Origin: Oxalicibacterium faecigallinarum
Lineage (GTDB): Bacteria > Pseudomonadota > Gammaproteobacteria > Burkholderiales > Burkholderiaceae_D
Direction: 5' to 3'
Length of the DNA: 64,000 nt
NCBI RefSeq assembly: GCF_014635705.1
Contig: NZ_BMDI01000001.1
Span: 1,008,008-1,072,007 of the forward strand
Under the pieces are notes generated by a model. It was not told the origin of the DNA and made no database searches. It saw only the letters and a list, made by a program, of their open reading frames with translations. This document shows, piece after piece, positions 25,573-51,109 of this stretch. A program made the translations under genes and the position numbers. Numbering within the stretch: the stretch's first letter is position 1; each line of letters begins with the position of its first letter.

Positions 25573-25577
25573 CGTGC
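25573..25577. repeat. left target-site duplication CGTGC
   Basis: The five bases CGTGC directly before the left end of the transposon are repeated directly after the right end at 51105-51109. A 5-bp duplication is the hallmark of Tn7-type insertion. Confidence 0.9.
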
Positions 25578-25601
25578 TGTGCCGTTAGCTAATACATGGC
25601 C
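25578..25601 (+). repeat. left terminal inverted repeat
   Basis: Begins TGTGCCGTTA and ends TGGCC. It matches the right terminus at 17 of 24 positions when the latter is reverse-complemented. Confidence 0.88.
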
Positions 25602-25710
25602 GAAAAATAAAGCATAAGCTGACCTCCTCGGCTACAGAGCTCAAACACCCGTCAATACCGATATCAAGCATTAAGTGACCATACGCCACGAAATAAAGCA
25701 TATCGCGTCC
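25601..25710 (+). repeat. left-end array of three TnsB-site-like repeats
   Basis: Three related 22-24-bp repeats lie at 25601-25624, 25659-25680 and 25689-25710. They share the pattern CGA-AATAAAGCATAA-GTGNCC (for example CGAAATAAAGCATATCGCG followed by TCC). Multiple transposase sites at each end are the rule in Tn7-like elements. Binding by this TnsAB is inferred. Confidence 0.72.
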
Positions 25711-25820
25711 AAAATAAATTCACTCTGTTCTGGCATGGAGTTTTCTCACTTTGCTGCCGCATTAGCTGTATTTGCTCGCTTCACTTTCACCGAATGACAC
25801 GTGATTTTGCTGGTAACAAT

Positions 25821-26348
25821 CTAATTGTTCTCTAACTGAGCCAGCAGCAGTTGCCGCGCTTCCTTCAACCGGTCAGCAACAAAACACCTGTCAATGTCGC
25901 AAATCACAACTTTTCCTTGCTGATAAAGCGTTGATTCAAGCAACGTCCAGCCACTGTGATGGTCATCCAAAATCAGCAGGGCTTCACCTTTGCTGTTCTT
26001 ACCAAGCCAAGCTTCAATTTCGGAAATACGGCTGGAATCCTTGCTCTTCGGAGTCGTCCACTCTTCGTGAAGATTGCATGCCACAAACTCAAGACCAGTT
26101 CGCTCGAACACCAATATCATTTGCTCTCGTCCCAGCTGAGTCGTCCAACTTGAGGATATAACATACAAGGGAGAGAACTCTGCGTGTAGAAGCTTCAGAT
26201 TTTCTTTCGCATCTATATGCATCAAACCTTGCCAAAGCTCGGGCCACTCCTCTGTGCCGTGTTCGAACAACTGTATGACTTGATAAGAGTTGTAGATGCC
26301 TCGGCCAACTAGCACGTCATCTAGGTCAAGAAAAACTGTTGGGCGCAT
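25821..26348 (-). CDS. HAD-fold protein, SAK-type (RNA-repair-associated) family
   Basis: A 175-residue HAD-like protein. The nucleophile motif is FLDLDDVLV (Asp8, Asp10), the conserved ISSSWTTQLG is motif II-like, and LLILDDHHSG is the acidic motif. This resembles the HAD domain found in large RNA-repair proteins and as stand-alone genes on mobile elements. The phosphatase or phosphotransferase substrate is unknown. It is divergent from a second HAD gene of the same type, and the two share a 168-bp region containing a LexA-like box. Confidence 0.75.
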   Translation of the reverse strand: MRPTVFLDLDDVLVGRGIYNSYQVIQLFEHGTEEWPELWQGLMHIDAKENLKLLHAEFSPLYVISSSWTTQLGREQMILVFERTGLEFVACNLHEEWTTPKSKDSSRISEIEAWLGKNSKGEALLILDDHHSGWTLLESTLYQQGKVVICDIDRCFVADRLKEARQLLLAQLENN

Positions 26349-26413
26349 AAGCTGTCTCGTCTCGGTTTTGAAGCACTATTCATCAGAACTATTTGCTGAA
26401 AATCGGAGTAATA

Positions 26414-26433
26414 TACTGTTTAAATATACAGTA
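26414..26433. promoter_or_regulatory. LexA-like (SOS) box
   Basis: The 20-bp stretch TACTGT-TTAAATAT-ACAGTA is a near-perfect palindrome with the CTG-N10-CAG pattern and TA flanks of the classical LexA operator. It lies 66 bp before the start of the minus-strand HAD gene and 84 bp before the plus-strand one, where it could control both. SOS control is inference from the match. Confidence 0.75.
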
Positions 26434-26516
26434 TATTCTGAGTTTGTTGACAACTCTTGTAACAACAAAAAGCGCGAAGTCGTTACGACGAGTTTTACCA
26501 ATTACGAGATGGAAAT

Positions 26517-26966
26517 ATGCGAGTGATTCTGGCTCTTGATTTCGATGGCGTGCTACACAGCATCCACGGTGCTGCTTTCGAGCACCTTCGTAGATTCGAA
26601 TCCATCTTGAGACAATTTCCGGAAGTCGATGTCGTTGTGTCGAGTTCTTGGCGCGAGACATATGCGTGGGAAGATATTCTTAGCTACTTTAGCAAGGACC
26701 TACATCCAAGGTTCATCGGCCCAACGCCAGTGCTCTCGGTGGATTCGCAGCAATATCCGGCGCATGTCCGTTATCTAGAAATCAGAAAATTCCTTGCGGA
26801 CTCTGGACGAGACCCTCACCGCTGGATTGCGCTCGATGACGATGTATCGCTGTTCCCGCCGATGTGCGGAGAACTTGTGCTTTGTGATGCAAAAAAGGGA
26901 CTGGATGCTGCGACCGCAAGACTGCTTCGGAAAAGACTGTGGCAGTTACAAAAAATTGGGACTTAA
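26517..26966 (+). CDS. HAD-fold protein, SAK-type (RNA-repair-associated) family
   Basis: A 149-residue relative of the divergent HAD gene. It shows LALDFDGVLH (Asp8, Asp10), VVVSSSWRETY as motif II-like and WIALDDDVSLFP as the acidic motif. Such proteins (Pfam HAD_SAK-type) are common hypotheticals on genomic islands. Catalysis on nucleic-acid ends has been proposed for the family but not shown here. The shared LexA-like box suggests expression during DNA damage. Confidence 0.78.
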   Translation: MRVILALDFDGVLHSIHGAAFEHLRRFESILRQFPEVDVVVSSSWRETYAWEDILSYFSKDLHPRFIGPTPVLSVDSQQYPAHVRYLEIRKFLADSGRDPHRWIALDDDVSLFPPMCGELVLCDAKKGLDAATARLLRKRLWQLQKIGT

Positions 26967-28219: not shown

Positions 28220-28327
28220 GATGGAATATGACGCAGAAGAAAAATGAGGTTACCTGAGCCTACGTAGTTCACAGCGAGGCTACAGCACATATACCGATGC
28301 TCTTTTTACAATTTAAGGTGTTAGGGT

Positions 28328-29473
28328 CTAAATTCTTAATAGACTCATCTTTTCATCTTGATTAGCTGCCGCAAACTTATCCCTAAAATTTTTATCCTTG
28401 AAACGGTCCAGTCTCTTTATGTTTCTTTCCTTATATTTTTTTAATGCTTTTGGACGCACAGGTATATAGCGAAGTGCTTTAGTAAAATTAAAAAATGGTA
28501 TATCAGGGAAACCACGTGCCTCAGGCAATACTCCATGGAACATCAACTTAAAATCTGTTTCGGTATCTTTTACCGTATCAATGGCGCATTCAAACGCCTC
28601 ACTGTTATCGCCCCTATCTAGAGTCTCAAATTTAAGTAAAGCTGCTGCATCGGCTGAATAAATACAACTAGCGGCATTTATAAACTGCAAAGTATTGATT
28701 GTTAAAACATCACCCTCTGAGATTGTGAGCACTGAATTTTTTCGGTCGAACATTTTCCCGTATGAAGATTTCAATTTATAAATACTGCTGTCGTAATAAA
28801 TGAAACACAAGTCAGGCGATATTGGAAAAACGACAATCAAGCCCGCAGATAATGCCCCTGTTGTAGGGTGTTTTGGAAAATCGCGCATACATGGATTAAT
28901 GAACACCGCTGGGGCATCGGAAAAAACGAAAGGCAACTGGCTCGAATTACGTAGAAGAATACACTCCAAGTCCTCCATAGCCCATCCGGATTCGAACGCA
29001 AGTACCATCGAATGCCATTGCCATCGTTTATCATCTGCATCGAAATTTTCCAGCGAGTTTTCTTTTTTCCAGTTTTTTGCCTCTTCAATATTTTTGACTT
29101 TTTCAGAAATATCGAAATACGCCTCGAGAGTTTTCCAAACCGTCTGAGTTTGATTTCTCTTTTTTGACGTTCTCGCATCCTGATATTGAATACATTGTAT
29201 AACTCCGCGCTCGACCTTCTTGTCTACCCGTCGCAATTCAAGTGCGTAATCTATATTTTTTTTCAGAACATTTTCAACTTCGCAGACCTCATCTTCAACT
29301 TCCCCATCGCCGTAAAAATAGCTTTTGGAAGCTTGGTCAGCAATAGAGCAATTTTCGATAATTCTTTTTTTTGAAATAAGATAAGAGCAAATATGTTTTT
29401 TCTTCTCGTTAAAATATCTAAAATAAAATTGAGGAACGAAATGCTGATTTTTCTTTTTCGGTGTGGTGTTCAT
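28328..29473 (-). CDS. DUF4238 family protein
   Basis: A 381-residue protein with the DUF4238 signature near the N terminus (KNQHFVPQFYFRYFNEKK), where the family has an HxVPxFY-type motif. The rest is charged and helical. The function of the family is unknown. Members occur often on genomic islands and beside defence genes, which fits this place. The gene is strongly AT-rich compared with the host, a sign of transfer. Confidence 0.82.
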   Translation of the reverse strand: MNTTPKKKNQHFVPQFYFRYFNEKKKHICSYLISKKRIIENCSIADQASKSYFYGDGEVEDEVCEVENVLKKNIDYALELRRVDKKVERGVIQCIQYQDARTSKKRNQTQTVWKTLEAYFDISEKVKNIEEAKNWKKENSLENFDADDKRWQWHSMVLAFESGWAMEDLECILLRNSSQLPFVFSDAPAVFINPCMRDFPKHPTTGALSAGLIVVFPISPDLCFIYYDSSIYKLKSSYGKMFDRKNSVLTISEGDVLTINTLQFINAASCIYSADAAALLKFETLDRGDNSEAFECAIDTVKDTETDFKLMFHGVLPEARGFPDIPFFNFTKALRYIPVRPKALKKYKERNIKRLDRFKDKNFRDKFAAANQDEKMSLLRI

Positions 29474-29714
29474 TAAGATTATTTGGAAAAGATAAGAGTC
29501 AGGTTACCGCAGTACTAGCGTTACGACGTTAGCGTCACAAAGCGCGCGACGCGCTTGCAATGCTTGTACATCATCTGTGTAGAGAAGAATCTGCCTCATT
29601 CGTACACAGACGGTGTGTATGTCTGGCTCGACGTTAAAACCATTCGGAGCGATTGGAGTAGTTGGAAAGATTAAGGGATAAGTTTGCGGGAAGCCTACCT
29701 AAAGTCACTATGTT

Positions 29715-29999: not shown

Positions 30000-30012
30000 G
30001 TGTGATACCTCG

Positions 30013-31566
30013 CTAAATGTAAAACTTGAAGGGAAGCATTGGCTCTCCTTCCAACGGAGCAGCAACCAAAATATCGCCGATAGCATCAGCAAATCGAATC
30101 GTGACAGGCTCCCTGTCATTGAACAGGCACGTATTGAAGTTAATTTTCGTCAGAGCCAGCACATCGCGCATCACAGTACGTAACTCAGCTTCACCTCGGC
30201 GGACGCTGATTTGTAGTGGATTTGGAGTATCAGGTCCCATGTATGTACTAAGTCGAGGAACGAATCCTGACGTCCACAAGTATCCGGTACGCGAGTCAGT
30301 AATCAACGCTGTCCCACGAATGACAGGGTATGCACCTGACCTAAACAATTTCAGCTGGTCCCACGCATCTGCAATTTGGACACCGACGATATTCGTCGAA
30401 GTCCCATGACAAGCCTCAACAAAGCCATCCCATTCGTCATCACTGAATGAGGCTTTAGCGTGAATAAATAGCTCCAGCGGTTCTTTTCCGTGCAAACGTT
30501 TGTACTCTGCAAGCACAGTGGTGACTAATCTGGTTGCTGCCGCTCTATCCAGGTGGAATTGTTTCGTGTCAGGGTGAAACCAAGGCCCTAGCGCTCCCCT
30601 GAAAACTACCCCCTCACCATCAGACAAAAACATTTGAGCGGCGCAGACTGAGTGTTTTGAAGTGTCTGCAATCTCTTGGCGCTTGTACACCAAACCTACA
30701 TAACAGACACCAGGACGCATATCGGCGATTTGCCAAGGGCGACCGCCGCTCTTGTAGTAAGAGCCAGAGCATAATTTCCAAGCGACCGTTGCCATATCTT
30801 CGATTCGACGCTTGGGCTCGCCCGCAGCGTTCAAGAAATCGTAGGGAGCCAACGTACTTTCACGAACCAGCTGAGTGACAATTTTTTGGTGGAGTAATCG
30901 AGCCTTCAACTGTCGACGGAAGTTTTTCTCATACTTATAGACTTCCGCTTGTTCCTCAATTTCAGCATCTCCAAACAAGCTAGGTTGTTCATTTAACTTT
31001 AAAGCAGCCTTTGCGCTAATTGCTACCTTCCCAGGCACTCTGTCTTTCTTCGCAACGAGGGACATTGGCCGGCCGAGTTCATAAATAAACTCAGGCAAAC
31101 CGACGTACCAAAAGCTAGGCGGGTCTTCGTCTCGTTTTGTTTGGGCAATAAGTCGTTCTACGTAAACATCGACCACCGATTTGATTGCCTCATGGCGATT
31201 CTCAATGTAAATCAATCTCTTCAGCTCATCCTCAGAGATATCGTCAATCACACGGTGCGGAGTAGCAGACCAAATAGCGTTAAAGGCCTCAGCGACACCT
31301 GGAAATGGAACATGATGTGGCGCCATCTCTTTAGCGCCTTTACGGGGAGCTGGGACATCAATGAAGGATGAAACAGCTTCTGCCCAACGCTTAAAGCGGT
31401 CAAGTCCATCTTTGGTGCCAATAAATCCATAACGTATTGGTCTACGCGATTCAGATGAATCCACGGGACCATACAGATAAAGACCATCTCGAGCATACTC
31501 AAGCTTTTGACCATAGCGGAACTCCAGAGTCGGTTCTGGGATATAGACAATCTCAGGTCTTTTCAT
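30013..31566 (-). CDS. short prokaryotic Argonaute (MID-PIWI), SPARTA subunit
   Basis: A 517-residue short pAgo, which uses a guide RNA to detect invader DNA. It lacks N and PAZ domains, as expected. The PIWI half includes DRAAATRLVTTVLAEYKRL, LELFIHAKASFSDDEWDGF and the hydrophobic C terminus MLPFKFYI that closes pAgo proteins. The catalytic DEDX set of long Argonautes is not apparent, consistent with an inactive sensor. It overlaps the TIR-APAZ gene by 14 bp. Together they match SPARTA systems, in which guided target binding triggers NAD depletion. Confidence 0.88.
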   Translation of the reverse strand: MKRPEIVYIPEPTLEFRYGQKLEYARDGLYLYGPVDSSESRRPIRYGFIGTKDGLDRFKRWAEAVSSFIDVPAPRKGAKEMAPHHVPFPGVAEAFNAIWSATPHRVIDDISEDELKRLIYIENRHEAIKSVVDVYVERLIAQTKRDEDPPSFWYVGLPEFIYELGRPMSLVAKKDRVPGKVAISAKAALKLNEQPSLFGDAEIEEQAEVYKYEKNFRRQLKARLLHQKIVTQLVRESTLAPYDFLNAAGEPKRRIEDMATVAWKLCSGSYYKSGGRPWQIADMRPGVCYVGLVYKRQEIADTSKHSVCAAQMFLSDGEGVVFRGALGPWFHPDTKQFHLDRAAATRLVTTVLAEYKRLHGKEPLELFIHAKASFSDDEWDGFVEACHGTSTNIVGVQIADAWDQLKLFRSGAYPVIRGTALITDSRTGYLWTSGFVPRLSTYMGPDTPNPLQISVRRGEAELRTVMRDVLALTKINFNTCLFNDREPVTIRFADAIGDILVAAPLEGEPMLPFKFYI

Positions 31567-32920
31567 CTGCTACCTCCTCTGATACATCTTCGAAGGGCTC
31601 ATCAGGAACATCCGGGTCTTCCTCATCCTCCTCAATATCTCCTTCCAACACAGTTACCGGACAACTGAATTGCATTGGAGGGAGGTTGGCAATTAAAAAC
31701 TCATCGTCAGAAACACCTATCTTCAGCGAATTTTTTCCATCGGTCAGCCACCAAAGGTAAGCACACATCATGTCTCTCCATCGTGCATTGCGCCAACCTT
31801 TGGCGAAAGAACGGCGAAGACTATGAGACTTTTTGACGTTATCTATGGCATCCAGCCCATTACTGGAGAAGACTAAACGAGCAGACAGTCGGTAATGAAG
31901 CAATGGAAAGGTACGTAACTGGGCGCTCATTGCGTAATGCCAATGAATGTTTCGTTTCGGTGAGTGCCCCATAATCTGTCTAGAGCCACGCCTAAAATTC
32001 CAATCGAATTTCACTTTGGTCAGTGGCCCCTTCTTGATGTTCGGCCACCAACTGAGTCGCTTACCACTGCCCATATATCCATCAAGGCCTTTTTTAGCGC
32101 AAAACTTCTCGAAAGCTTGTCCACCAATATCGACATAAATGCGACGAGCTTCGAATGCCGTTACGCCCAGACTAGACCATCCATTTCCTAGAAACTCACT
32201 GGTAGGAAGGGATGCCACCAATTTTCCTGGTAGTGCTTCTGCAATGAGGCCGTTCTTATCAGGACTAGAGAACGTAATAATTCCGGTGTGATATGGGACG
32301 GCAGGCCACTTGTGAAGCTGGCGCCTCTGAAATTTTTCTATTTCAAAACCAGTAGGAGGTTCGCAGTAATGGATACTCGCTGGCTGACCTGTTACCTCCA
32401 GCCAGTTAGAGACTAACGGTTCACTGTTCTGTAATAGCGGTGAAGCCCCTTCGGATTGCGAGGTTATCCATGCATTGAGAGAACCTCGAGCCTGTCGTTG
32501 CAAAGGATAAGTTCCTAGCAACTCCTGTAACTCCGCCAAACCTCCAGCCCAACTCTTTTCGAAATCTACGTACTGAAGATGGGTAATTAGAAAAGGCGCA
32601 TCGAACTTTGTCATCCGAAGTGGAATAATAAAGTTAGGGTCGCCGATTTTCTTTGAGATATCAGAGCTGATTTGAATCTCGTTTCGGACGCCTTGTTTCT
32701 CCAGACCGCCAGGGGTGCAAACCAATAAGACCTTCGCTGCTCGATTACGTAATGCATCTTCGAGCTTCCTGGCCCAGTCATCGCCGCCCTTAAGTCGCAT
32801 CACATCGGCCCAAACCTCATAACCCATGGCTGATAGCTTCGCTCCGAGCCATAAGACGAAGGCATTGTCTTCTGGAGTAGCGTGCGAGATGAAAATTGAA
32901 TTGCGATTCTGATTATCCAT
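31553..32920 (-). CDS. TIR-APAZ protein, SPARTA effector
   Basis: A 455-residue partner of the short Argonaute. The TIR domain covers about residues 5-140 (SIFISHATPEDNAFVLWLGA, then KLSAMGYEVWAD). The NAD-cleaving glutamate is probably Glu54 in WARKLEDAL. The APAZ-like region, which binds pAgo and the nucleic-acid duplex, fills about residues 170-455. The C terminus is very acidic (EGDIEEDEEDPDVPDEPFED). In known SPARTA systems the complex assembles on invading plasmid or phage DNA and depletes NAD(P)+. The nuclease-like gene lies 18 bp upstream. Confidence 0.9.
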   Translation of the reverse strand: MDNQNRNSIFISHATPEDNAFVLWLGAKLSAMGYEVWADVMRLKGGDDWARKLEDALRNRAAKVLLVCTPGGLEKQGVRNEIQISSDISKKIGDPNFIIPLRMTKFDAPFLITHLQYVDFEKSWAGGLAELQELLGTYPLQRQARGSLNAWITSQSEGASPLLQNSEPLVSNWLEVTGQPASIHYCEPPTGFEIEKFQRRQLHKWPAVPYHTGIITFSSPDKNGLIAEALPGKLVASLPTSEFLGNGWSSLGVTAFEARRIYVDIGGQAFEKFCAKKGLDGYMGSGKRLSWWPNIKKGPLTKVKFDWNFRRGSRQIMGHSPKRNIHWHYAMSAQLRTFPLLHYRLSARLVFSSNGLDAIDNVKKSHSLRRSFAKGWRNARWRDMMCAYLWWLTDGKNSLKIGVSDDEFLIANLPPMQFSCPVTVLEGDIEEDEEDPDVPDEPFEDVSEEVADEKT

Positions 32921-32938: not shown

Positions 32939-34201
32939 CTAATTAAAGAGATGACTGTAAGCGGCAGACCAGAAAGGACTTCGTTCATTCCTAAAGCTAT
33001 ATACAGCTCCGCTCTGTTGCACCGCTAATGCATCTACAGAGTTTAAAGTCCCACTAGTAATGAAGTTCACACCGACGAGATGCTGGCGATTGTCTGCGAT
33101 TAGAAAACGACTTGTGAAAACCCTGAGGGCTGTAGGTGCATTCAGACCATTATTGTCATGCTCAACTAAATTGGCGAGCTGCTCTTTAGAAAGGTCAGTA
33201 AGTTCGGCAATTAGCAAACCAGCACGCGATTTTGTCAGCTGTCGGCCGGCAGCATCAGAGAGGGTATCAAAGATAGAATCCAAGAAATTGTCGTCATTTT
33301 GACTTTGAATAGTGAGCGCTACTATTCCCCCATTCTTAGCTCCAAAAATTAAAGCTGCTCTATTGGAGGTGCCACTAATTTCATCAACTATTTTTCGAGC
33401 AAACGCAGAATCTTGAAATGGCGGTAAACCAAGCGTTTTGGTGTCGAACTGGAACAGCTCAACTGTTGCGCCCGACGTCAATGTTCCTGACGTTGTCGAC
33501 TCAATCGCTGCCCACAACTCTGATGCCAGAGCTTTCCTATCTCTGTAATCGTTCGGAAGTTTATTCGGAAGAGTCAGCACCACACTAAGGCCAAAAGCTT
33601 GAGAAGCATTCAATCCCATGATTTGCTTTCTCAGCAGTGATGCGAAATCCAGTATTTCCCTAGTTTTGATGACCCTTCCCTTGTTTGTACCAATCGACTT
33701 ACATTCAACCTCTAAAGGTGGATGCGATGAATCTTCAACAAGCAAGTCGAAAGTACCTATCTTTGTAATCTCCGGCCAACTTATCTTTTTACCCTCCCCC
33801 ACGAAGTGCGTAGCCACTGCCAGCTCTAGCTGCAGGCCTCTCATGTCGTCTGGATTTTTGAGGGCTCCCCGCACGCGACCGAACAACTTACTAGCTTCTG
33901 ATGCAGGAGAATTTCTGGTCAGTGAGAGAACTTGCGCAATAAATGCCATTGCCGGATATAACGAGCGCGAGTTCACCAATTGGAGAGGGATTTCTCCAAA
34001 CTTCTTATGCATATTTGTCAAAGTATCGAGCTGATACGCTATTTCATTCTCTGCTCGTAGATGGCTACTGAGAAGTGGATTACCTCGAATTTCGTCATTA
34101 CATTTTCTGACCCGATTCGTCCAATTTGCTTGCCCGATTTCATTTACAAACTGGTTATATAAGTGCGGAATGTTTCCGGTGTAAAGCTCTGTGTCAATCA
34201 C
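32939..34201 (-). CDS. predicted PD-(D/E)xK-type nuclease, first gene of the SPARTA operon
   Basis: A 420-residue protein starting at GTG, 18 bp upstream of the TIR-APAZ gene on the same strand. Residues 120-175 have a restriction-endonuclease-like pattern: Glu126 (LQLELAVATHF), Asp152 (GTFDLLVED) and Glu166-x-Lys168 (LEVECKS). The N-terminal 110 residues are helical. The C-terminal part (about 220-420) includes a beta-rich segment and no motif I know. It contains no APAZ domain, so it differs from the nuclease-APAZ fusions of other short Argonaute systems. The nuclease activity is predicted. Confidence 0.7.
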   Translation of the reverse strand: MIDTELYTGNIPHLYNQFVNEIGQANWTNRVRKCNDEIRGNPLLSSHLRAENEIAYQLDTLTNMHKKFGEIPLQLVNSRSLYPAMAFIAQVLSLTRNSPASEASKLFGRVRGALKNPDDMRGLQLELAVATHFVGEGKKISWPEITKIGTFDLLVEDSSHPPLEVECKSIGTNKGRVIKTREILDFASLLRKQIMGLNASQAFGLSVVLTLPNKLPNDYRDRKALASELWAAIESTTSGTLTSGATVELFQFDTKTLGLPPFQDSAFARKIVDEISGTSNRAALIFGAKNGGIVALTIQSQNDDNFLDSIFDTLSDAAGRQLTKSRAGLLIAELTDLSKEQLANLVEHDNNGLNAPTALRVFTSRFLIADNRQHLVGVNFITSGTLNSVDALAVQQSGAVYSFRNERSPFWSAAYSHLFN

Positions 34202-35691: not shown

Positions 35692-35894
35692 GTCTTTTCC
35701 TTTATCACTTTGAATTGCGCGACTCACGTTGCAATCTTTTGATTGCCGTGACCTTGGGCGGTTGAAACGCTAGTGATTACAGGATAGACGGGCTAGGAGA
35801 TAGTCTTAAAAGGCTGAGATGAAGAAATTAGCATTCCTATGACCTGCATCTCTTCCAAGTACAAGAAAGCCTCAGAAGAGATGCAGAGCTTCTA

Positions 35895-36920: not shown

Positions 36921-37182
36921 ACGTTGAAGCGGAATTCAAACAGTGCCCACTGCTGCATTCCGCAACGTTAGAGGTAAATGCGGTGATTGGTACTACTGTC
37001 TTCTCGGCGAACCAAGTGGGCCTGGGTGGGCAGCGTGCGTCGACTACGCCCTACGATTCTATTTCAGAATCTATTACCGAATCAATGCTTTTAGAATTAC
37101 ACGAAGCATCTAGAGCTTGCTAACCATTTTTTGCATCTGGTATCAACGCAGGAATATAATCAGCTGATTCCACGAGGCTTGG

Positions 37183-39753: not shown

Positions 39754-39782
39754 TCGACTCTCCAACTTACTCTACTGTGATG

Positions 39783-41971: not shown

Positions 41972-41981
41972 GCAGTGTGCG

Positions 41982-43304
41982 CTATGCAAGTCCCGGTGTA
42001 CGTGGAGCAGGCTTCGGTGGGGAATCAATGATGCGTGGGCCTGAGCCTCCGCTGCCGCCATTGGAGCCACCCGAGAATGGGCAACCAAATACTTCCAAGG
42101 TCTTATGCATAATCTGTTTCGGGTCGTTCAATGCCGCGATAGCTTGCAGGTCCGCACGCAATAATCCACACCACGTACGGAATGCTTCAGCGCGTTCGCC
42201 GTCGTCCGTGTTCCAACGTTCAGCGAAGTTTTCATCAATGACAGTTGGATTAGGCAAGTAGTAGCCATAATCTGGATTCTTCGGAATCATCTCAGGCAAA
42301 AGGTCTGCAATCGCAATAAGCGCATCCACCACATGGACAAATGGTTTGCGGGAGCCGTCGGCCATCAAATCTGCCAGACCCTCGTAACACGTGGTGAGCA
42401 GCGTCACTAAGATAATGGAGATAGGCTGCGTCTCGGAGTCAAGAAGTCCGCGATATACGCACATATCACGATGACGCTTGAAGAGGCGAATTGCCACTCG
42501 AAGAGTTTCTTCGACTTCCACACTTTGGGTACCAACTGGTTCTACGCTCGCACGAATACTGTCCAAAGCCTCTGTGGCAAGCGACCAGACAATCGTCCTG
42601 TTTGAAGCACGCTCAACCCAGTCTTGGATACCCTTGGGGTTCGATGTCTTCCAGTTTTTGGAGGGCGTGTCGACCACGGCTAAGGCAGTGGCCAGAAACT
42701 CCGGTTCAGCTTGCTTCAGACCGCGCCGTTGACGCTCCGTAAGCGGCACCGTTTCCAAAGGAACTGACGGAGTAAATTCCAGATAAAAGCGTTTGTCTGG
42801 ATAAGTGATGGTCCAGCACCGCCGCTTTGCCGTAGCTTCCAGTCCTTCAAGCGCTGTACCAACCGCGGCAAAGAAAGCCATTGGGTCTTTTGCCTGAATC
42901 TTTGTAATGTCTACTTCGCAAACCGCATCAATGTCGAACTTACCGTTTCGAAGTGTACTAATAAGCGTTTTGGTGCTTGCAGAGCCTTGCGGAAAGACAG
43001 TGATTGCACCACGTGGCCAGTTCAGTTTCGAAACCAGTCGGTTGGCGATGTTTTCATATTCGGCCGCAGCCTCATCAATCAACTCCTTTTTGACTGTGAT
43101 GTGGTCATTGACTGCACTCAGCGCGTGCGTATATGGCTCGCGGTCATGTTTGATTCTCGCTTGCTTTACAGACTCATGAAGGTCTTCAAGTGCAGCTGTG
43201 CCAACACCATCAAAAACGGGACCGAATGATTTAGCCATAACGGCTAGACCACCGCGGCGTTGAATAGCTTCCTCTACCAACATTGCTTTACGTGTCTTTG
43301 CCAC
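41982..43304 (-). CDS. CBASS CD-NTase (cyclic oligonucleotide synthase)
   Basis: A 440-residue CD-NTase that makes a cyclic nucleotide signal on phage attack. The nucleotidyltransferase motif is intact: Gly107-Ser108 (FPQGSASTKTL), Asp124-x-Asp126 (KFDIDAV) and the third acid probably Glu176 (FYLEFTP). GTG start with AAGGAAACAACT before it. The C terminus PAPRTPGLA is exposed and flexible, as needed for Cap2 conjugation. The clade and the cyclic product cannot be read safely, but the SAVED effector nearby implies a cyclic di- or trinucleotide. Confidence 0.92.
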   Translation of the reverse strand: MAKTRKAMLVEEAIQRRGGLAVMAKSFGPVFDGVGTAALEDLHESVKQARIKHDREPYTHALSAVNDHITVKKELIDEAAAEYENIANRLVSKLNWPRGAITVFPQGSASTKTLISTLRNGKFDIDAVCEVDITKIQAKDPMAFFAAVGTALEGLEATAKRRCWTITYPDKRFYLEFTPSVPLETVPLTERQRRGLKQAEPEFLATALAVVDTPSKNWKTSNPKGIQDWVERASNRTIVWSLATEALDSIRASVEPVGTQSVEVEETLRVAIRLFKRHRDMCVYRGLLDSETQPISIILVTLLTTCYEGLADLMADGSRKPFVHVVDALIAIADLLPEMIPKNPDYGYYLPNPTVIDENFAERWNTDDGERAEAFRTWCGLLRADLQAIAALNDPKQIMHKTLEVFGCPFSGGSNGGSGGSGPRIIDSPPKPAPRTPGLA

Positions 43305-43318
43305 AGTTGTTTCCTTTA

Positions 43319-43541
43319 TTAAATCTCAATAGGCACTTGTTTCGAACCAGCGGGGGGAACGACACTCAAGCCGTTGATAGTGAAAGCTTCTCTGAAAGGT
43401 TGCTGCCAATTTGGTCGGTCATACAGAACATATTCGGAACGATAACCAAACCGCATCACTTTTCCAATGCTGAATACCATCGCCTGATGGACTCATAACA
43501 ACAAGGTTTAGACTGTTCGTAATTCCTGCTGGAATAGACAT
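43319..43541 (-). pseudogene. small frame-broken gene between the CBASS effector and the CD-NTase
   Basis: Two short frames overlap here. The first (43419-43541, 40 codons) starts MSIPAGITNSLNLVVMSPSG, 13 bp after the effector stop, and fails after SDAVWLSFRICSV. The second (43319-43480, 53 codons) reads RFGYRSEYVLYDRPNWQQPF and ends VVPPAGSKQVPIEI, 14 bp before the CD-NTase start. Dropping one A from the AAAA run at about 43460 joins them into a protein-like 73-residue product (HWKVMRFGYR at the joint). Either a small gene has mutated or the frameshift is used. No family recognised. Confidence 0.55.
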
Positions 43542-43554
43542 TGGCTTAGCCCTT

Positions 43555-44637
43555 TTAAAAGTCTTGAGTTGCGACGCGTTGGGCTGGCTTACTCGCGGTA
43601 GCCATCTGAATACTCCAAGGATATGAAGGATTGGACTCTTTCTCGTATTGGTAGCATCGCAACAGCGGCATATTGCGAAGGTCATAAGCTCTACCAAACC
43701 GAATAGCCAGACTAGCCGGTGCCGCAAGCACCAGATGAATAATTGATACTCGCTTATTACCTAATCTCGCTACAGTCTGCAAAAATTGCTGCGTCAGTGC
43801 GTTTTGCCATTGCACACCCCATATGGTGTTAGGCAAAGGATTCTGCAACCGCAAGTGAACGAGCGGTTTATCAGCAAATGTCCGTTTAATACCATCTATA
43901 TCTACCAAATAAGAAGCGGAGACAGCTAGTACCACTTCATTAGCCAGATTGAACTCGTCTTCTTCGAGAACAAAAGCTTCTTTATTCTCTTCCACCATTA
44001 ACTCATTCCATCGGCCTTCCGTTCTGTTCCAATCAAACAGTACGACATTCCCCTCATCGTCTATCAAAGTGCCGACATGGAATAAAAGAGGCACTTGCAA
44101 CACTCCGCCGACAATTACTGTTACGTGCTCTCGTGAAACGTCGCCCCGGGCAACCTGCAAATCCCTTCTAAGGTAATCAAGCTCAATTAAAGCAGCTCCC
44201 AAATGGGCACTGTCACCAGTCAAGAATTTTCTAACGTCTTTCACCAAGTCAATACGCTGGCCTACGAATTTAGCTGGAATGGCTGAAATCAAGGGCCGGT
44301 CTGACGTATCCACAAGACCGCGAAGCTCTACCACAATGACCCTGCCAATTTCACTTAATTTATGCTCTTGTCCATGAACTCTCGTAACAATAATGAGCCC
44401 GATAATAAAACCAACTGCGCCCAAAACGATGACCACAGTTGCAAGCAAGAGATTTGGCTCATCCGTTAATCCCCACTTGAAGCGATTCCCTTCATACTCG
44501 ATTTCGAAGAACACTCCACCTGCACCAAACAAAAGCAAAGAAGCACTCAGTGCGCAAAGTTTGAGTCCGAGATTACGTTGTCGCGTCAGAAAATCGATTA
44601 CTTTTGTCGCATTTCGCTTGAACCAATCAGCCCACAT
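43555..44637 (-). CDS. cap14: CBASS effector: two-helix membrane protein with SAVED domain (Cap14-like)
   Basis: A 360-residue effector. Two membrane helices lie at about residues 24-48 and 64-88, followed by a cytoplasmic part. The C-terminal half resembles SAVED: VHLRLQNPLPNTIWGVQWQN, RVSIIHLVLAAPASLAIRFG and the end YEKESNPSYPWSIQMATA. SAVED binds the cyclic nucleotide made by the neighbouring CD-NTase, and the membrane part is then thought to disrupt the inner membrane, killing the infected cell. First gene of the operon. Confidence 0.85.
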   Translation of the reverse strand: MWADWFKRNATKVIDFLTRQRNLGLKLCALSASLLLFGAGGVFFEIEYEGNRFKWGLTDEPNLLLATVVIVLGAVGFIIGLIIVTRVHGQEHKLSEIGRVIVVELRGLVDTSDRPLISAIPAKFVGQRIDLVKDVRKFLTGDSAHLGAALIELDYLRRDLQVARGDVSREHVTVIVGGVLQVPLLFHVGTLIDDEGNVVLFDWNRTEGRWNELMVEENKEAFVLEEDEFNLANEVVLAVSASYLVDIDGIKRTFADKPLVHLRLQNPLPNTIWGVQWQNALTQQFLQTVARLGNKRVSIIHLVLAAPASLAIRFGRAYDLRNMPLLRCYQYEKESNPSYPWSIQMATASKPAQRVATQDF

Positions 44638-44680
44638 ATCATCCCCAAAGACACTAAATGTAGATATTATTTTTTTTAAA

Positions 44681-44974: not shown

Positions 44975-45750
44975 GCTATTAGCAAGTTAAAGCGACTACA
45001 AAATCGCGCGAAATCAAGCTATTAAGAGATGACCTACCAGTTCGAGGAGCATCGAAGAAAACCGATGAGCATCAAGGAAAGCCGTCAATAGCTGTTATTT
45101 AGGTTGGCGAGGGACGTCTGAATATTCGGGTAATCTTTTTCCTGATTGCAGAATTGGAGAAAAATAGATAATCTACTTTTCAGGTCTATGACCAAACACT
45201 AGAAAACTAGCTAGTTTTACCGCTTTGCTGACACCATCAGCAAGTCGATTCGCTATTTGTGAGAGGGTTCGCAATGGAGAATCGATGGATAAGCGCTTTA
45301 TAAGCTGCCCTAAACAGGCTGCATTATTTAAAGAAATATCAGGCAGATACAGTAGCGGTGTCTTTAAGTTAGCTTTGTCGTTTTCAGCTAACTACGCTCA
45401 AGTTCAAAGCCGATACTTCCATTACTTGGCAGCGCGCCAGGAAAAACGCTGCAGCAATTCATCGACTATCCCTCTTTCGATTAAGCCGCGCTGGCATTTC
45501 TTAAATTCCCCACTCTTTAATTCCACTCAGCAGTTCTTTTACACCGGCTTTGCTCGGCGTCCTTTCATCTACCAACGACTCCCTGCAATGTGGTTCGCCC
45601 TCGAACCTAGAATCCGATTGCTATGGTCGCACCATACCTTTCAAATTCGACACCACCGTGTCTTAAAATCTAAAATCAGTCGGCAGCTCCTAAAATTTTT
45701 TACAGCGTCGACTACGTTTCTATATATCAGCAGGAACCACTCCACTGGGG

Positions 45751-48453
45751 ATGCTGATGCTAGATAAAACACAACTTGTCGATATGTTCGACCGCCTTGG
45801 AACGCCACGACAAGGCCGCGAGCTGATTATGAAAGCACGGTCGCATGCTCCCGTACGCGACGTCAAATCGCGCGGTGGCAACGTCATTACGCTGATGGCA
45901 AGTCAAAAAATGGGATGCGAAATCCGCACCGAAAGTCGTCACATCGAATTTGCCGCCGCTGTCGAGCGAGAATATGACGCGCAAGTGCTCGAGTACTACG
46001 CGCAGCCAACTGAATTGAAGCTGGACCTCATTGACCCTGCAACGGGCGAAATTCGCCGAATTACTCACTTCCCTGATTTCCTCGTCATACGCCAAGATGG
46101 TTTCACGCTGGAAGAGTGGAAATCTGAAAGTAAGCTTGAACGTCTTGCAGAAAAATACCCTTACCGCTTCAAAAAGGGGAGCGACGGCAGATGGTATTCG
46201 CCTCAAATCGAAAAGCAATTAGCCGAGCTTGGCATTGGCTATCGCATTTTCAGTGACTTGGACCTACCTCGACGTCGCGTAGACAATCTATTGCATCTGG
46301 CGGATTACTTTCATCCCGCAGCTCCCCCATGTGAGCAGGAAGAACTCGTCCGGCTCAACGCAGTACTGGCTCAGCAAGGTTGCTTGCATATTGCAGAGCT
46401 GATGGCCCAACCATTTAAGTTCAGCGCGGATACCTTGCTCAAGGCAATCGCCGATAACGTGGCCGTTGCTGACTTGGACCATGAGCTGCTGTCAGAACCG
46501 CGCCGCTCTCGACTTTATCGCGATACAACCTTGCGCGACTTCGTACGGGCCGAACAACAAGCAAACGTGGCGATTGCACAGGAGCGGTTTGTTTTCGAAA
46601 TCGCTGAAGGAGTCCGTTTTCTCTATGAAACACAGCAAATGGTTATTTCGCTGGTCGGTGAGAAAGACGTCGTCTGCCGCAAAGCAGATGGAGCAACACT
46701 TAGCCTCACCCGCACTTGGCTAACCCATGCTTTTGAATCAGGCCAAATCATCATGCAGAACCCAGCAACACATGCTGGTCTGGATTTGGTACGTCACTCC
46801 CAAGAAGCACTCAATTCTGCCCTACACAGACAAGCCATCTTAAATGATGCTGAGCAGAAGCATGTCAGCGAACGCACCATGCGTCGCTGGCTTGCACGTC
46901 AACGTGCAGCAACCGCGAACGGTGCCAACGACGTCTTAGCACTTGTCCCTCGTACCACAGCAAGGGGCAATCGAAGTGAGCGATTAAGTGCCGAACAGGT
47001 CGACATGATGCATAAAATTTATGAAACCAAATGGCGCACTACAGAGGCAAAAAACTACAAGAACTGTCACAGGGAACTACAGGTTGCATGCGATGCCATT
47101 GGCATTCAAGCACCGTCATATCCGACATTGATTAACTACATCAAGACGCTGCAGAGCGAAAGTGACGTGCGAACTCGCCATGGAAAACGCATGGCCTACC
47201 AGAACAGCGAATGGACTAACTTTCTACACTACGACACACCAATGCATGGCAGTCGTCCCTTTCAATACATACACGTCGACCACACACAACTCGATATCGA
47301 GTTGATTTCAAGTCGCTCCGACAAACCGCTCGGGCGGCCGTGGCTCTCCCTGGCCGTCGATTCATTTACAAGGCGCATCGTTGCGCTCTATCTAACTTAC
47401 GACCCACCTTCATACCGGTCAGTAATGATGGTCATGCGGGACCTTGTGAATCGCCATGAGCGACTACCTGAATTCGTTGTAGTGGATAACGGTCGCGATT
47501 TCATGTCCGAAGCATTTGAATCATTTTTACAGGTAATGGGGGTACATCTACGATTTCGTCCTGCTGGCCAGCCCCGTCATGGCGCAGTGCTTGAGCGGAT
47601 GTTCGGACGTGCGCACTCCGAATATGTACACAACCTCGCCGGCAATACTAAAGGGACCAAAAACGTCAGGTCACTTTCTGGTTCGCACCTTCCGGAAAAA
47701 TTTGCGGAATGGACATTGGAATCGATGTATTGCGGACTGCAAGCCTGGGCGTTCGACTACTACAACCAGCAACGTCATCCCGCTTTGGACTGTAGCCCAA
47801 TTGAATTGCATGCCAAAGGCATTAGGGACAGCGGTGCACGTCCGCAACGTCAGATACTTTTTAACCAAGACTTCCTGATTGCGACTTGCCCTTCTGCTGA
47901 CCGTGGTGGTGTTCGCAAAGTGCACCGGCAGCATGGCATCAAAGTCAACGACATGTTTTATTGGAATGCTGAATTCAGAGACCACCGTGTATCAGGTCAA
48001 AACTTACAAGTGAGGTATGACCCGTGGGATGCCTCATCGGCATACGTGCGCTTAAAAAACCAATGGGTTCACGCCCGATGCCGAGCCATGGTGCAACTGG
48101 GTCAATTAACTGAGACAGAACGGAAAGCCCTTACCGAGGAATACCGCAAACACAGCAAAGAGCATCACGACGACGAGAAGGCTATGCAGCGACTTCGTGA
48201 ATTCATGCAGGTCTTTAAACCTGAAGGGGCTATGCAAATCGCTATGGAGCGTCAACAAGAAAACAAGTCGCTTTACAACCAGCTAAAGCTGAGCAGCATC
48301 AACCCTGTTACTCAGCCTATGAAGACTTTTCTGGAAGACGACACATCAGCACACGTCATTGCTTCGGACATCAGCACTATCGAGCCAAGCTTTACAGCCA
48401 TATCGTCCGCGACAACAGAGCCAGAACCCTTACCTAAATTTGAAGAATTCTAA
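45751..48453 (+). CDS. tnsAB: TnsA-TnsB fusion transposase
   Basis: A 900-residue fusion of both Tn7 transposase subunits. Residues 1-185 form a TnsA-like nuclease: Glu66 (RHIEFAAAVE), Asp109 (HFPDFLVI) and Glu122-x-Lys124 (LEEWKSE). The rest is TnsB-like: an HTH near 385-395, then a DDE integrase core with Asp510 (HVDHTQLDIE), Asp579 (VVVDNGRDF) and Glu615 (VLERMFGR), 35 residues apart, then the Mu-type C-terminal domain. TnsA cleaves 5' ends and TnsB the 3' ends, so this fusion should give cut-and-paste movement. The start may be the second ATG at 45757, which suits the GGGG ribosome site. Confidence 0.92.
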   Translation: MLMLDKTQLVDMFDRLGTPRQGRELIMKARSHAPVRDVKSRGGNVITLMASQKMGCEIRTESRHIEFAAAVEREYDAQVLEYYAQPTELKLDLIDPATGEIRRITHFPDFLVIRQDGFTLEEWKSESKLERLAEKYPYRFKKGSDGRWYSPQIEKQLAELGIGYRIFSDLDLPRRRVDNLLHLADYFHPAAPPCEQEELVRLNAVLAQQGCLHIAELMAQPFKFSADTLLKAIADNVAVADLDHELLSEPRRSRLYRDTTLRDFVRAEQQANVAIAQERFVFEIAEGVRFLYETQQMVISLVGEKDVVCRKADGATLSLTRTWLTHAFESGQIIMQNPATHAGLDLVRHSQEALNSALHRQAILNDAEQKHVSERTMRRWLARQRAATANGANDVLALVPRTTARGNRSERLSAEQVDMMHKIYETKWRTTEAKNYKNCHRELQVACDAIGIQAPSYPTLINYIKTLQSESDVRTRHGKRMAYQNSEWTNFLHYDTPMHGSRPFQYIHVDHTQLDIELISSRSDKPLGRPWLSLAVDSFTRRIVALYLTYDPPSYRSVMMVMRDLVNRHERLPEFVVVDNGRDFMSEAFESFLQVMGVHLRFRPAGQPRHGAVLERMFGRAHSEYVHNLAGNTKGTKNVRSLSGSHLPEKFAEWTLESMYCGLQAWAFDYYNQQRHPALDCSPIELHAKGIRDSGARPQRQILFNQDFLIATCPSADRGGVRKVHRQHGIKVNDMFYWNAEFRDHRVSGQNLQVRYDPWDASSAYVRLKNQWVHARCRAMVQLGQLTETERKALTEEYRKHSKEHHDDEKAMQRLREFMQVFKPEGAMQIAMERQQENKSLYNQLKLSSINPVTQPMKTFLEDDTSAHVIASDISTIEPSFTAISSATTEPEPLPKFEEF

Positions 48454-48461: not shown

Positions 48462-49505
48462 ATGATTAAAAATACTCAGCCTAAGTTGCTCGCGGAAATT
48501 CCGGGCTCCCCTGAAAAAATTGCAAACAAGCGAATTATGCATACACGCATCGCAAACATGATGCGCGAATTAAATACGCTTATCTATGCTGGAAGTCAGG
48601 ATAGTATTTTGCTGGTGTGCGGGCCAACTGGCGTCGGAAAAAGTACTCTTTCCACATACATGGTCGAGGATGCCCTTAAAAAGGATTCTGCCAAAATGAA
48701 TAGTGATGCAGGACTGATATCAGCGATATACGTCCAGGCCCCATCGTCTGGTGAAAATGAATTTTCCTGGCGCTTACTCTACCAACGCATTCTGCAGCAA
48801 TTAGAGAGCGGCTTGGAAATGCCAAAAGTAGCGTACGGTATTGATGCAATCACGGGACGGATGGTGCGTCCCCGTGGTGCCACTGGTAACAGCCTAGCAG
48901 GACTCCGCACAGCCGTAGAGCAAGGATTACGAGCACGGCAAACTCGCTTTCTGGTTATTGATGAAGCTGCGCACATCATTCGTCAAACCAGTAACAATCG
49001 GCTTGGCATTCAACTCGATACATTGAAATCGTTGGCAAATGAATGCGGTACTCAAATCGTGCTTGTTGGCTCTTATGACCTTTACCAGTTGGTGTCACTA
49101 TCGGCTCAAATTGCGAGACGAACTCACGTACTTCATTTCGAACGATATCGTCAGGACCATGATTCGGATGTGCGGGCATTTCAAGCATGCGTTCAAAATT
49201 TCCAGAACACTTTGCCGGAGTTATGGGGAGAGGAACTCATGCAATACGTCAAAGCACTGCATGAGAATACACTGGGCTGCATTGGCACATTGAACACCGT
49301 TCTGACCCGTGCCGCAAAACTGGCACAAGAAAATGGGAAGTGGTCAGTCGATGCATTACGTCGAGCATTGCTGACAGAAAAACAGCGCGAAGCAATTCTG
49401 GAGGAAATCCTTGATGGTGAAGCGGCTATCAATCCCGCACTGACACGCACAATGCCCACATCGGGAACTCGTACCCGTCGCCATTCGGAGCGAAACGTAG
49501 CATGA
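48462..49505 (+). CDS. tnsC: TnsC-type AAA+ ATPase, transposition regulator
   Basis: A 347-residue ATPase that links target recognition to the transposase. Walker A is GPTGVGKST at residues 54-62 and Walker B is FLVIDEAAHI near 165-174. The C-terminal tail after residue 300 is basic and may contact the transposase. It follows tnsAB by 8 bp and overlaps tniQ by 4 bp (ATGA), so the three genes form one operon. Confidence 0.92.
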   Translation: MIKNTQPKLLAEIPGSPEKIANKRIMHTRIANMMRELNTLIYAGSQDSILLVCGPTGVGKSTLSTYMVEDALKKDSAKMNSDAGLISAIYVQAPSSGENEFSWRLLYQRILQQLESGLEMPKVAYGIDAITGRMVRPRGATGNSLAGLRTAVEQGLRARQTRFLVIDEAAHIIRQTSNNRLGIQLDTLKSLANECGTQIVLVGSYDLYQLVSLSAQIARRTHVLHFERYRQDHDSDVRAFQACVQNFQNTLPELWGEELMQYVKALHENTLGCIGTLNTVLTRAAKLAQENGKWSVDALRRALLTEKQREAILEEILDGEAAINPALTRTMPTSGTRTRRHSERNVA

Positions 49506-50851
49506 GCCGATTGACGATGAATCCACGGTCAGCTTTACATGCATTAAAACCTTATGGCCAAGGTACAGTTGAAGTCGAAAGTTTGTTGAGCTACTTCTGC
49601 AGATTAGCGGTGTCACACAGTGTTTCGACACTCACCTTGTCCCGCTCTATTGCCCAACGTTTTAGTCGCGAAATTTCTCCCGATTACGATTGGCATGAAC
49701 GGAAAATTTCCGGTTGTGGGGACTCGGCATTGACATGGTCAGCGGCCTTATCGGCACTGACGTCTGTTGAAGGACTTGACCGTCTGACTTTTTTGCCTTG
49801 GAGTGAGGCTATTGCGCAAAACGGATTATCACTTGTAAGCAAAGGACAATTTTGTCCTGACTGCTTAGCAGACGATGTTACTCACGGTCGCACCCCATAT
49901 TTTAGATTGGCATGGGAATCAGCCGAAGTAAGCGTATGTACAAAACATGGGAATCGTCTTTCACAGCGGTGTTCTTGCTGCCAAAGGGAGAATATTCGGC
50001 ACTCTGCTGCCTACGTCGTGCCGGGCTGGTGCACACATTGCGGTGAATTTCTTGGACAAAAACCAGAGCTCGTAACCACGGAAGCCATAGATGCTGCAGC
50101 CTTGTGGAAAGCTAGACAGGTCGGAGAACTATTGGCATTTCAATTTACATTGAACGATGTACCAAGGCGGAGCGACATGCTCCTCTGCATTAAGGAGCTC
50201 ATCACTGAAATGGACGGCGGGCAAAGCTCCGCTTTTGCTCGTCGCATCGGGATTGCGAAAAGCACTATCCATCATTGGTTTAAAGATAATGGAACGCCAA
50301 CACTTTCGGTGACTTTGAAGATTGCAGCCCACTGCGGTGTTGGTCTTACAGACTTATTGACGGGCAATCTGAATAAATGGACAGCGCCGACAATAGAGCG
50401 CCAACAAGTGTTATTGCTGCAACACCCAACAGCGGCTTGGCATCCAACACCACGCACAATTGATTGGAATGAGATTGAAAAACAACTTCAAACCTTCCTA
50501 TTATTACCGACGCCCATTAGTGTTTTAGAGGCAGCACGCCGTTTAAATCTGGAAGCGCGACAACTCTATTTACGAGCAAATCGTACAACACGCCAGTTGG
50601 GAGAGCGTTGGAAGACCTATTTAAGTCGGCGCTATGCAGCGACTGTAGTTCGAGCTTGGCCGTATTTGGAAAGCGCTTGCCGGGAAATATGGTCAGAAGG
50701 CAAAACCGTAACGCGTCGGGAAATTGTGGCACGCGTACCCGCTGATATTCTTTCACCGGTTGCACATCTGCTTGATGTACTGAAAGAGGTGCAAACACAT
50801 TTACATAATGTCGGATGTATAGAAACTGCAATACCGGCTACCAGTGCTTAA
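49502..50851 (+). CDS. tniQ: TniQ/TnsD-type target-selection protein
   Basis: A 449-residue TniQ-domain protein. The N-terminal part (GTVEVESLLSYFCRLAVSHS) is the TniQ front. Zinc-binding cysteines follow: FCPDCLADD near residue 120, then CTKHGN, CSCC and CTHCGE near 180. An XRE-like helix-turn-helix sits at about 243-275 (FARRIGIAKSTIHHWFKDNG). This length is between short CAST-type TniQ and TnsD, and the added HTH suggests sequence-specific DNA binding. The right-end insertion next to tRNA-Ser makes that gene the likely attachment target. Confidence 0.88.
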   Translation: MSRLTMNPRSALHALKPYGQGTVEVESLLSYFCRLAVSHSVSTLTLSRSIAQRFSREISPDYDWHERKISGCGDSALTWSAALSALTSVEGLDRLTFLPWSEAIAQNGLSLVSKGQFCPDCLADDVTHGRTPYFRLAWESAEVSVCTKHGNRLSQRCSCCQRENIRHSAAYVVPGWCTHCGEFLGQKPELVTTEAIDAAALWKARQVGELLAFQFTLNDVPRRSDMLLCIKELITEMDGGQSSAFARRIGIAKSTIHHWFKDNGTPTLSVTLKIAAHCGVGLTDLLTGNLNKWTAPTIERQQVLLLQHPTAAWHPTPRTIDWNEIEKQLQTFLLLPTPISVLEAARRLNLEARQLYLRANRTTRQLGERWKTYLSRRYAATVVRAWPYLESACREIWSEGKTVTRREIVARVPADILSPVAHLLDVLKEVQTHLHNVGCIETAIPATSA

Positions 50852-50947
50852 TCTCGACGTCTTATTCAGAGCACATTACTCTACTTCTGCAATATAAAAT
50901 CAAATTACCTACTCCTGATTTTTAAGTCGAGGAAACGCTCTCGCTTT

Positions 50948-50978
50948 AAAAAACCGGCCCTTAGCGGCCGGTTTTTTT
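50948..50978 (+). terminator. rho-independent terminator after tniQ
   Basis: Stem AACCGGCC-...-GGCCGGTT with flanking A tract and seven T, about 100 bp after the tniQ stop and inside the transposon's right end. It should stop transcripts before the tRNA gene. Confidence 0.88.
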
Positions 50979-51027
50979 ATATCTGCTCACTTATGTGCTG
51001 ACAAATCGAGACGGCTTATCACAGATT

Positions 51028-51076
51028 CGCAATAAAGCAAAATGTGGCCCATCGAGAAATAAAGCATAAAGTGTCC
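51028..51076 (+). repeat. right-end TnsB-site-like repeats
   Basis: Two repeats at 51028-51049 (CGCAATAAAGCAAAATGTGGCC-type) and 51053-51076 (GAAATAAAGCATAAAGTGTCC-type) match the left-end array consensus. They read in the same direction as the left-end copies on the plus strand, that is, not mirrored as usual for Tn7-like ends. Confidence 0.68.
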
Positions 51077-51080
51077 AAGT

Positions 51081-51104
51081 GGCCAAGTTATGCTTAACGG
51101 GACA
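51081..51104 (-). repeat. right terminal inverted repeat
   Basis: Read on the minus strand it starts TGTCCCGTTA and ends TTGGCC, matching the left terminus at 17 of 24 positions. The internal AAGCATAA also matches the core of the transposase-site repeats. Confidence 0.88.
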
Positions 51105-51109
51105 CGTGC
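51105..51109. repeat. right target-site duplication CGTGC
   Basis: Identical to 25573-25577 and directly after the right end. Confidence 0.9.

Follow-up and report, generated by a model that had tools for sequence, protein, structure and literature searches.

A Tn7-like transposon with fused TnsA-TnsB and defence cargo beside a tRNA-Ser gene of Oxalicibacterium faecigallinarum

Ends and transposition genes of the element

The window analysed here is a 64,000-nt stretch of Oxalicibacterium faecigallinarum contig NZ_BMDI01000001.1. It contains a Tn7-like transposon of 25,527 bp, which occupies positions 25578-51104 and lies next to a tRNA-Ser gene. The ends, the transposition genes and the target are arranged as follows, with coordinates given in the window.

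25573..25577, no strand: left copy of the target-site duplication CGTGC (sequence reading)
25578..25601, plus strand: left terminus TGTGCCGTTA...GGCC with the terminal inverted repeat, including a degenerate TnsB site recognized by eye (sequence; start of homology to G114)
25606..25710, plus strand: three TnsB-like sites (25606, 25662, 25692), all reading inward (consensus scan)
45405..45620, minus strand: broken DUF6471 gene with two in-frame stops, one TGA and one TAA (comparison with relatives)
45751..48453, plus strand: TnsA-TnsB fusion of 900 residues (Pfam, structure-database match)
48462..49505, plus strand: TnsC, AAA+ ATPase of the TniB family (Pfam, solved match)
49502..50851, plus strand: TnsD-like TniQ target selector with a TniQ domain, a helix-turn-helix and a C-terminal region (Pfam, solved match)
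51031..51076, plus strand: inner pair of right-end TnsB-like sites (51031, 51058), oriented like those of the left end (consensus scan)
51081..51104, minus strand: right terminus, composed of the outermost TnsB-like site (51081-51099) and TAACGGGACA (sequence, site scan, stop of homology)
51105..51109, no strand: right copy of the duplication CGTGC (sequence reading)
51133..51223, minus strand: tRNA-Ser(TGA), the target gene, with its 3' end 28 bp from the right terminus (tRNA call)

The sequence TGTGCCGTTA begins at 25578, and TAACGGGACA finishes at 51104. The two 24-base termini agree at 17 of 24 positions. When 1 kb around one end was paired with 1 kb around the other, a match of at least 17/24 combined with a 5-bp duplication occurred at a single place, and in none of ten shuffles. 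In blastn comparisons, homology to the Herminiimonas fonticola genome (G114; genomes are designated by G numbers) starts at 25578, where the flank outside is unrelated, and homology to an element beside a tRNA-Ala gene (second locus of G100) ends at 51104. Beyond the island, the window and the G114 chromosome are colinear in both directions. Comparison thus fixes the boundary on each side. The preliminary description of this DNA had claimed a Tn7-like transposon with these ends and the CGTGC duplication; the sequence and the shuffle control bear it out, and its interval of 25573-51109 counts both CGTGC copies.

The ends are lined with TnsB-like sites. A scan of the window with the consensus AATAAAGCATAANNTGNCC, allowing at most three mismatches, found seven sites, six of them at the two ends, with 0.54 expected by chance; seven were reached in 0 of 100 shuffles, and ten Markov resamples gave 0-2. 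Of the right-end sites, the outermost faces inward and the two inner ones face outward. This arrangement was compared among ten right ends, the window included. Both inner sites pass the scan in nine (window, G114, both loci of G100, G151, G183, G161, G118 and a Caballeronia plasmid), and one inner site passes in G456. The outermost site also passes in nine, and in Caballeronia it was read by eye. The site arrangement is mixed in two distant relatives, and cyanobacterial plasmid loci tried as outgroups gave only partial site repeats, with boundaries not established. According to the preprint PMC13370975, transposons with asymmetric ends can vary in the number, orientation and spacing of their sites; the end design is therefore not claimed as new. 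The TGT...ACA ends with arrays of putative TnsB sites are characteristic of Tn7-like elements.

The tnsAB, TnsC and TniQ genes are co-directional, separated by a short gap and then an overlap. TnsA-like_N, rve and Mu-transpos_C domains occupy one open frame, with rve slightly below its cut-off. TnsA and TnsB thus form one fused protein of 900 residues, as in the TnsAB-fusion subfamily, and this corrects the gene set given in the preliminary description. Among solved structures, TnsAB matches chain M of 9bw1 best (E 1e-136, or E 1e-243 for a six-sequence profile), and TnsC matches 8fcu best (E 4e-36), with the identical sequence entered for 8v32 and 9bw1. TniQ matches TnsD in 8v32 best (E 2e-25, residues 7-333). 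We take 9bw1 and 8v32 to be the transpososome of the type I-B CRISPR transposon from the Peltigera cyanobiont, in agreement with the abstract of PMC12585508.

The residues E66, D109 and E122/K124 of the TnsA-like part and D510, D579 and E615 of the TnsB-like part of TnsAB are invariant across six aligned proteins. Their assignment as catalytic follows Tn7 motifs, which we presume to apply. Walker A and Walker B stretches are readable in TnsC. Eight Cys/His positions of TniQ are invariant across ten aligned sequences and are probably zinc-binding. Between the window and G114, 289 of the 410 differences in tnsAB fall at the third position of a codon, which points to selection for the protein. 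The set of a putative DDE transposase TnsB joined to a TnsA endonuclease, an AAA+ TnsC and a TniQ/TnsD selector is that expected of a Tn7-like transposon. The preliminary view that all transposition genes are intact holds for TnsAB, TnsC and TniQ, which are open with their catalytic motifs, and fails for the neighbouring DUF6471 gene.

Target gene and insertions in relatives

The gap between the right terminus and an RNA gene is 26-31 bp across the ten right ends. Six of these lie beside tRNA-Ser (window 28, G114 30, G100 29, G183 31, G161 31 and G118 30 bp), two beside tRNA-Ala (second locus of G100 28, G151 26 bp), one beside tRNA-Met (Caballeronia plasmid, 28 bp) and one beside transfer-messenger RNA (tmRNA; G456, 29 bp; stretch L099, right end at 15964, tmRNA from 15994). 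The target range thus appears to take in tmRNA. The count excludes the places at which no end or target could be fixed (G239, G268, G440, G475, G476, G507, G627, G668, the inner G161 unit and the inner Caballeronia module); G353 and G434 were unopened. In G440 and G476, a plausible end lies about as far from a tRNA-Ser gene, without an independent boundary. Because ten right ends stand 26-31 bp from RNA genes, recognition of the TnsD type with insertion at a fixed distance is the best mechanism to propose, and the tRNA gene would serve as the attachment site of a TnsD/TniQ protein, as in the TnsAB-fusion subfamily.

The close relative in G114 is a separate insertion with other cargo. Its TnsAB is 88% identical, and it lies at the same tRNA-Ser gene with the duplication TGCTT. 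Three elements have readable 5-bp duplications, the length typical of Tn7-like transposition, and all are distinct: CGTGC in the window, TGCTT in G114 and CTTAT in the outer unit of G161. The bases outside the G114 right end continue into a second AACGGCACA, and those outside the left end resemble a right-end site; the G114 element therefore appears to have inserted into an older element, at the right end of the latter, and its distance from the tRNA gene is nonetheless 30 bp. G161 contains two adjacent end-bearing units, each followed by CTTAT. The outer unit spans 8.6 kb, has CTTAT before it as well, and its tns genes are reduced to a TniQ tail. The inner unit (L092, 5159-5848) has 690 bp, both ends and a different sequence before it, and is without transposase; it is possibly a minimal non-autonomous element. 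The Caballeronia sp. M1242 plasmid NZ_CP071130 (L106) bears two tandem TnsAB-TnsC-TniQ modules beside its tRNA-Met gene.

Such elements are sparsely distributed. The right end is present in 7 of 294 family genomes. TnsAB has a match in 79 of the 294 (E 0.001), and most of its length is covered at seven places only (G000, G114, two in G100, G151, G268 and G239). Among 399 genomes of the order, ten have a TnsAB profile match at E 1e-120, the window genome included.

The tRNA-Ser gene was matched in 12 of 13 genus genomes. Element ends lie beside it in four (window, G114, G161 and G183) and are missing in eight, six of which keep genes of both window flanks (G172, G080, G127, G140, G150 and G194). 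Between the left block and the tRNA gene, five of those six have 1.3-6.9 kb of other DNA, and G140 has ~15 kb. Within the stretch fetched, G057 keeps the left side only, and G099 the right side only. The locus thus exists without the element, as flank genes are kept around an element-free tRNA-Ser gene in six genomes. The preliminary description had also named an empty site with a single CGTGC as confirmation of the boundaries; this junction is not readable across species, since the left flank 23300-25577 gave only short matches in other genus genomes. It had further named the whole 25.5 kb without transposition genes as evidence that would speak against it. No stretch examined matched the cargo set, and remnants with ends but no transposase (G161, G118) hold other contents.

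Cargo genes

The DNA to the left of tnsAB encodes the following cargo.

25821..26348, minus strand: HAD_SAK_2 protein (Pfam)
28328..29473, minus strand: DUF4238 protein (Pfam)
30013..31566, minus strand: short prokaryotic Argonaute (pAgo), SPARTA-type (PADLOC and a further match)
31553..32920, minus strand: Argonaute-associated TIR protein, TIR-APAZ (Pfam, PADLOC)
32939..34201, minus strand: 420-residue protein without family hit, with homologues on plasmids (Pfam, PADLOC, searches)
34621..35727, minus strand: tyrosine recombinase (Pfam, searches)
35895..38717, both strands: unassigned open reading frames (ORFs) at 35895-36920 (minus), 37183-37734 (plus) and 37710-38717 (minus), with one weak sub-cutoff match, to the first only
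39202..44637, minus strand: cyclic-oligonucleotide-based antiphage signalling system (CBASS) with E1-E2 and JAB genes (Pfam, PADLOC)
39202-39765, minus strand: CBASS DEDDh exonuclease
39783-40367, minus strand: CBASS JAB
40286-42088, minus strand: CBASS E1-E2
41982-43304, minus strand: CBASS cyclase
43555-44637, minus strand: CBASS 2TM-SAVED effector

Two putative anti-phage systems are recognizable. The predicted short pAgo and TIR-APAZ genes are adjacent, the arrangement that characterizes SPARTA; the APAZ name for the TIR protein is our assumption. Predicted cyclase, effector, E1-E2 and JAB genes occur together, as in type II CBASS, and we take the label 'type II' to apply. The CBASS and the short pAgo/TIR pair together amount to ~8.3 kb, which is ~41% of the 20.2 kb of cargo DNA left of tnsAB. 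The cargo thus includes anti-phage systems, and the earlier statement that it is mostly anti-phage defence goes beyond this share.

The 420-residue protein is possibly a nuclease, judging from an E-x-K-like stretch recognized by eye. The notion that its gene is a fixed partner of SPARTA was rejected. The gene occurs in 2 of 369 genomes of the class search, this one included, with neighbours read in this one only. Of 13 plasmid records with a homologue, three were opened over 6-kb flanks, and none of these has an annotated pAgo; a fourth stretch, unannotated and from Caballeronia, gave no pAgo match. The Caballeronia M1242 stretch (L106) also includes a homologue. In the tRNA-Ala element of G100, a gene 50% identical to that of the HAD_SAK_2 protein is situated ~2 kb inward of a left-end-like sequence. 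An inverted repeat (28369-28392 and 29666-29689; 24 nt, 88%) brackets the DUF4238 gene. Outside the element, the window contains a flavin mononucleotide riboswitch (Rfam RF00050) at 12187-12359.

The G114 cargo, of which 12 of the 17 ORFs of at least 120 residues were scanned, encodes Wadjet JetABCD, a ThsB-like TIR protein, and a CBASS with HORMA, AAA and a SAVED-PDDEXK effector. Apart from ORF 45225-45767, the window proteins left of tnsAB have no match in the G114 stretch (E 1e-4).

Proposed mechanism, alternatives and known systems

We interpret the element as a Tn7-like transposon that is autonomous and homes to a site next to a tRNA gene, with a probability of about 0.93. The interpretation builds on the ends, the duplication, the gene content, the catalytic motifs, the narrow distance at several RNA genes and the separate insertion of a close relative with other cargo. 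We propose that the TnsD-like TniQ would bind the 3' half of the tRNA-Ser gene, and that TnsC would assemble on bent DNA and set the distance. Fused TnsA-TnsB, occupying the arrays of sites at either end, would excise the element, which would be joined ~28 bp beyond the tRNA 3' end, with its right end toward the tRNA and a 5-bp duplication. The tRNA gene would stay whole, and so the host would pay little, while the element would carry exchangeable anti-phage genes. Binding by each protein and present-day activity we infer from the sequence.

Several observations weigh against this interpretation. The homology of TniQ to the solved TnsD covers residues 7-333 only, leaving out the C-terminal part, and its structure prediction from a two-sequence alignment has a mean pLDDT of 35.7 and was used for no fold search. 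The older remnant at G114 (L031, L032) would end 16 bp from the tRNA gene, outside the range of 26-31, unless bases were lost there, the sole explanation offered. The left-end-like sequences of the G100 tRNA-Ala element and the inner G161 unit have no flanking duplication, so the left boundaries of both are unsure. More distant relatives (G239, G268, G668 and others) yielded no fixable end. In the window genome, only one copy of the element was found, and no exact empty junction is readable in the 13 genus genomes, whose junction bases vary between species. We regard the element as probably mobile.

The strongest alternative is that a formerly mobile Tn7-like element is now stranded, with its core genes open and transposition blocked by lost regulation or fine damage. 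The broken DUF6471 gene of the window speaks for it. In relatives, this gene encodes a small protein opposite to the tnsAB strand, directly upstream of tnsAB. It is open in six of ten close loci (both loci of G100, G151, G456, G627 and Caballeronia module 1), broken in the window, interrupted by a stop close to its start in G114, and undetected in G183 and in module 2 of Caballeronia. It also occurs in the distant G668; the searched stretches of G161, G239, G268, G440, G475 and G476 gave no match. A match above the family cut-off occurs in 16 of 300 order genomes, with neighbours mostly unread, and DUF6471 is not mentioned in the literature searched. From its position, one might guess at a regulator of transposition. 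Because the gene is broken here and open in six of ten close loci, regulation or something else may be impaired, a further point against an autonomous element. Stranded remnants also occur in relatives: the two units of G161 retain a TniQ tail only, G118 keeps a TniQ tail and the right end, and tnsAB is truncated in G183. Against stranding, none of TnsAB, TnsC and TniQ is truncated and their motifs are conserved, tnsAB has the third-position excess, and DUF6471 is broken in G114 too, yet G114 is a separate insertion. We regard stranding as unlikely, with an appreciable share of the probability nonetheless.

The plus-strand ORF 45225-45767 overlies the broken DUF6471 gene and was rejected as a transposition gene or guide RNA. 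It is probably spurious, and its substitutions relative to G114 are weakly uneven over the codon positions (29/23/41). As it is open and of equal length in G114, 72% identical and without gaps, a real gene retains some possibility.

A genomic island inserted by its own tyrosine recombinase (34621-35727) is a common arrangement at tRNA genes, and both the recombinase and an adjacent tRNA gene are present. Islands of this type usually cut inside the tRNA, a piece of which is left behind as a repeat. The 21-base stretch of the tRNA 3' end, however, matches only itself in the window at up to three mismatches. We searched 24 fetched stretches with the 20 proteins of the window; 16 contain tns genes or remnants, and none has a match to the recombinase (E 1e-4), many of the stretches not spanning a whole element. 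We consider such an island very improbable.

Least credible is a CRISPR-associated transposon (CAST) with a guide RNA in the unassigned DNA: the closest solved relatives are taken to be from a type I-B CAST, but neither Cas effector genes nor a guide RNA were recognized among 20 ORFs by Pfam and 18 by PADLOC (best 25 families per protein) and in the RNA family scan, which has no match inside the element; the Cas-related labels are confined to TniQ, which drew CAST-associated TniQ models, and to the CBASS exonuclease, which drew a Cas-associated DEDDh model; there are no direct repeats of at least 20 bases in 25578-45200; and the stretch upstream of tnsAB is largely accounted for by the DUF6471 relic.

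The element is real and well bounded, and its kind is already known. The review PMC11406308 describes a subfamily with TnsAB fusion and tRNA homing, the source of the I-B2 and I-D CASTs. As annotated, the window element has the features of this subfamily without a recognized Cas system; the placement would follow from these features and the best solved match rather than from phylogeny. The preliminary description could not match the element to a named one: its kind is now matched, and its exact cargo set remains unmatched to a named element.

The type I-B system of the Peltigera cyanobiont shares the fused TnsAB, related TnsC and TnsD, and a tRNA-gene attachment site, whereas the window element has neither a recognized Cas system nor a recognized second TniQ, resides in a betaproteobacterial host and targets tRNA-Ser. 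CyCAST, the type I-D CAST of Cyanothece sp. PCC 7425, likewise uses TnsAB and TnsD to insert beyond a tRNA gene, 30-33 nt from tRNA-Leu (PMC10293859); it has CRISPR-Cas, and the window element inserts 28 bp beyond tRNA-Ser. Prototype Tn7 shares the TnsA/B/C/D logic, the 5-bp duplication and a target-proximal right end with closely packed sites, but has separate TnsA and TnsB, the glmS target and TnsE (PMC11406308). Tn7-like elements with defence cargo including CBASS were described by Benler et al. 2021 (PMC8649781), who mention tRNA-downstream safe sites; its main text lists a PIWI REase and has no word beginning with Argonaute, and the cargo set of the window was not traced there. A literature search for Herminiimonas and Tn7 showed no such element at the level of the listing.

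Tentatively, and with more doubt than confidence, we suggest a distinct branch within the Burkholderiales, made up of TnsAB-fusion transposons that are CRISPR-free and have an end design of their own, a divergent upstream DUF6471 partner, and a TniQ switching between tRNA-Ser, tRNA-Ala, tRNA-Met and tmRNA while the distance stays steady within a few bases. For the machinery of the I-B2 and I-D CASTs, the element is a CRISPR-free relative with clean boundaries, and its own natural relatives lie next to several kinds of RNA gene. A comparison within this set could reveal what region of TniQ recognizes the target and which features of the ends set the orientation. Two elements that share the tRNA-Ser gene as target and have 88% identity in the transposase carry CBASS and SPARTA in one case, and Wadjet, a ThsB-like TIR protein and a HORMA-type CBASS in the other, a clear example of a transposon as a carrier of defence.

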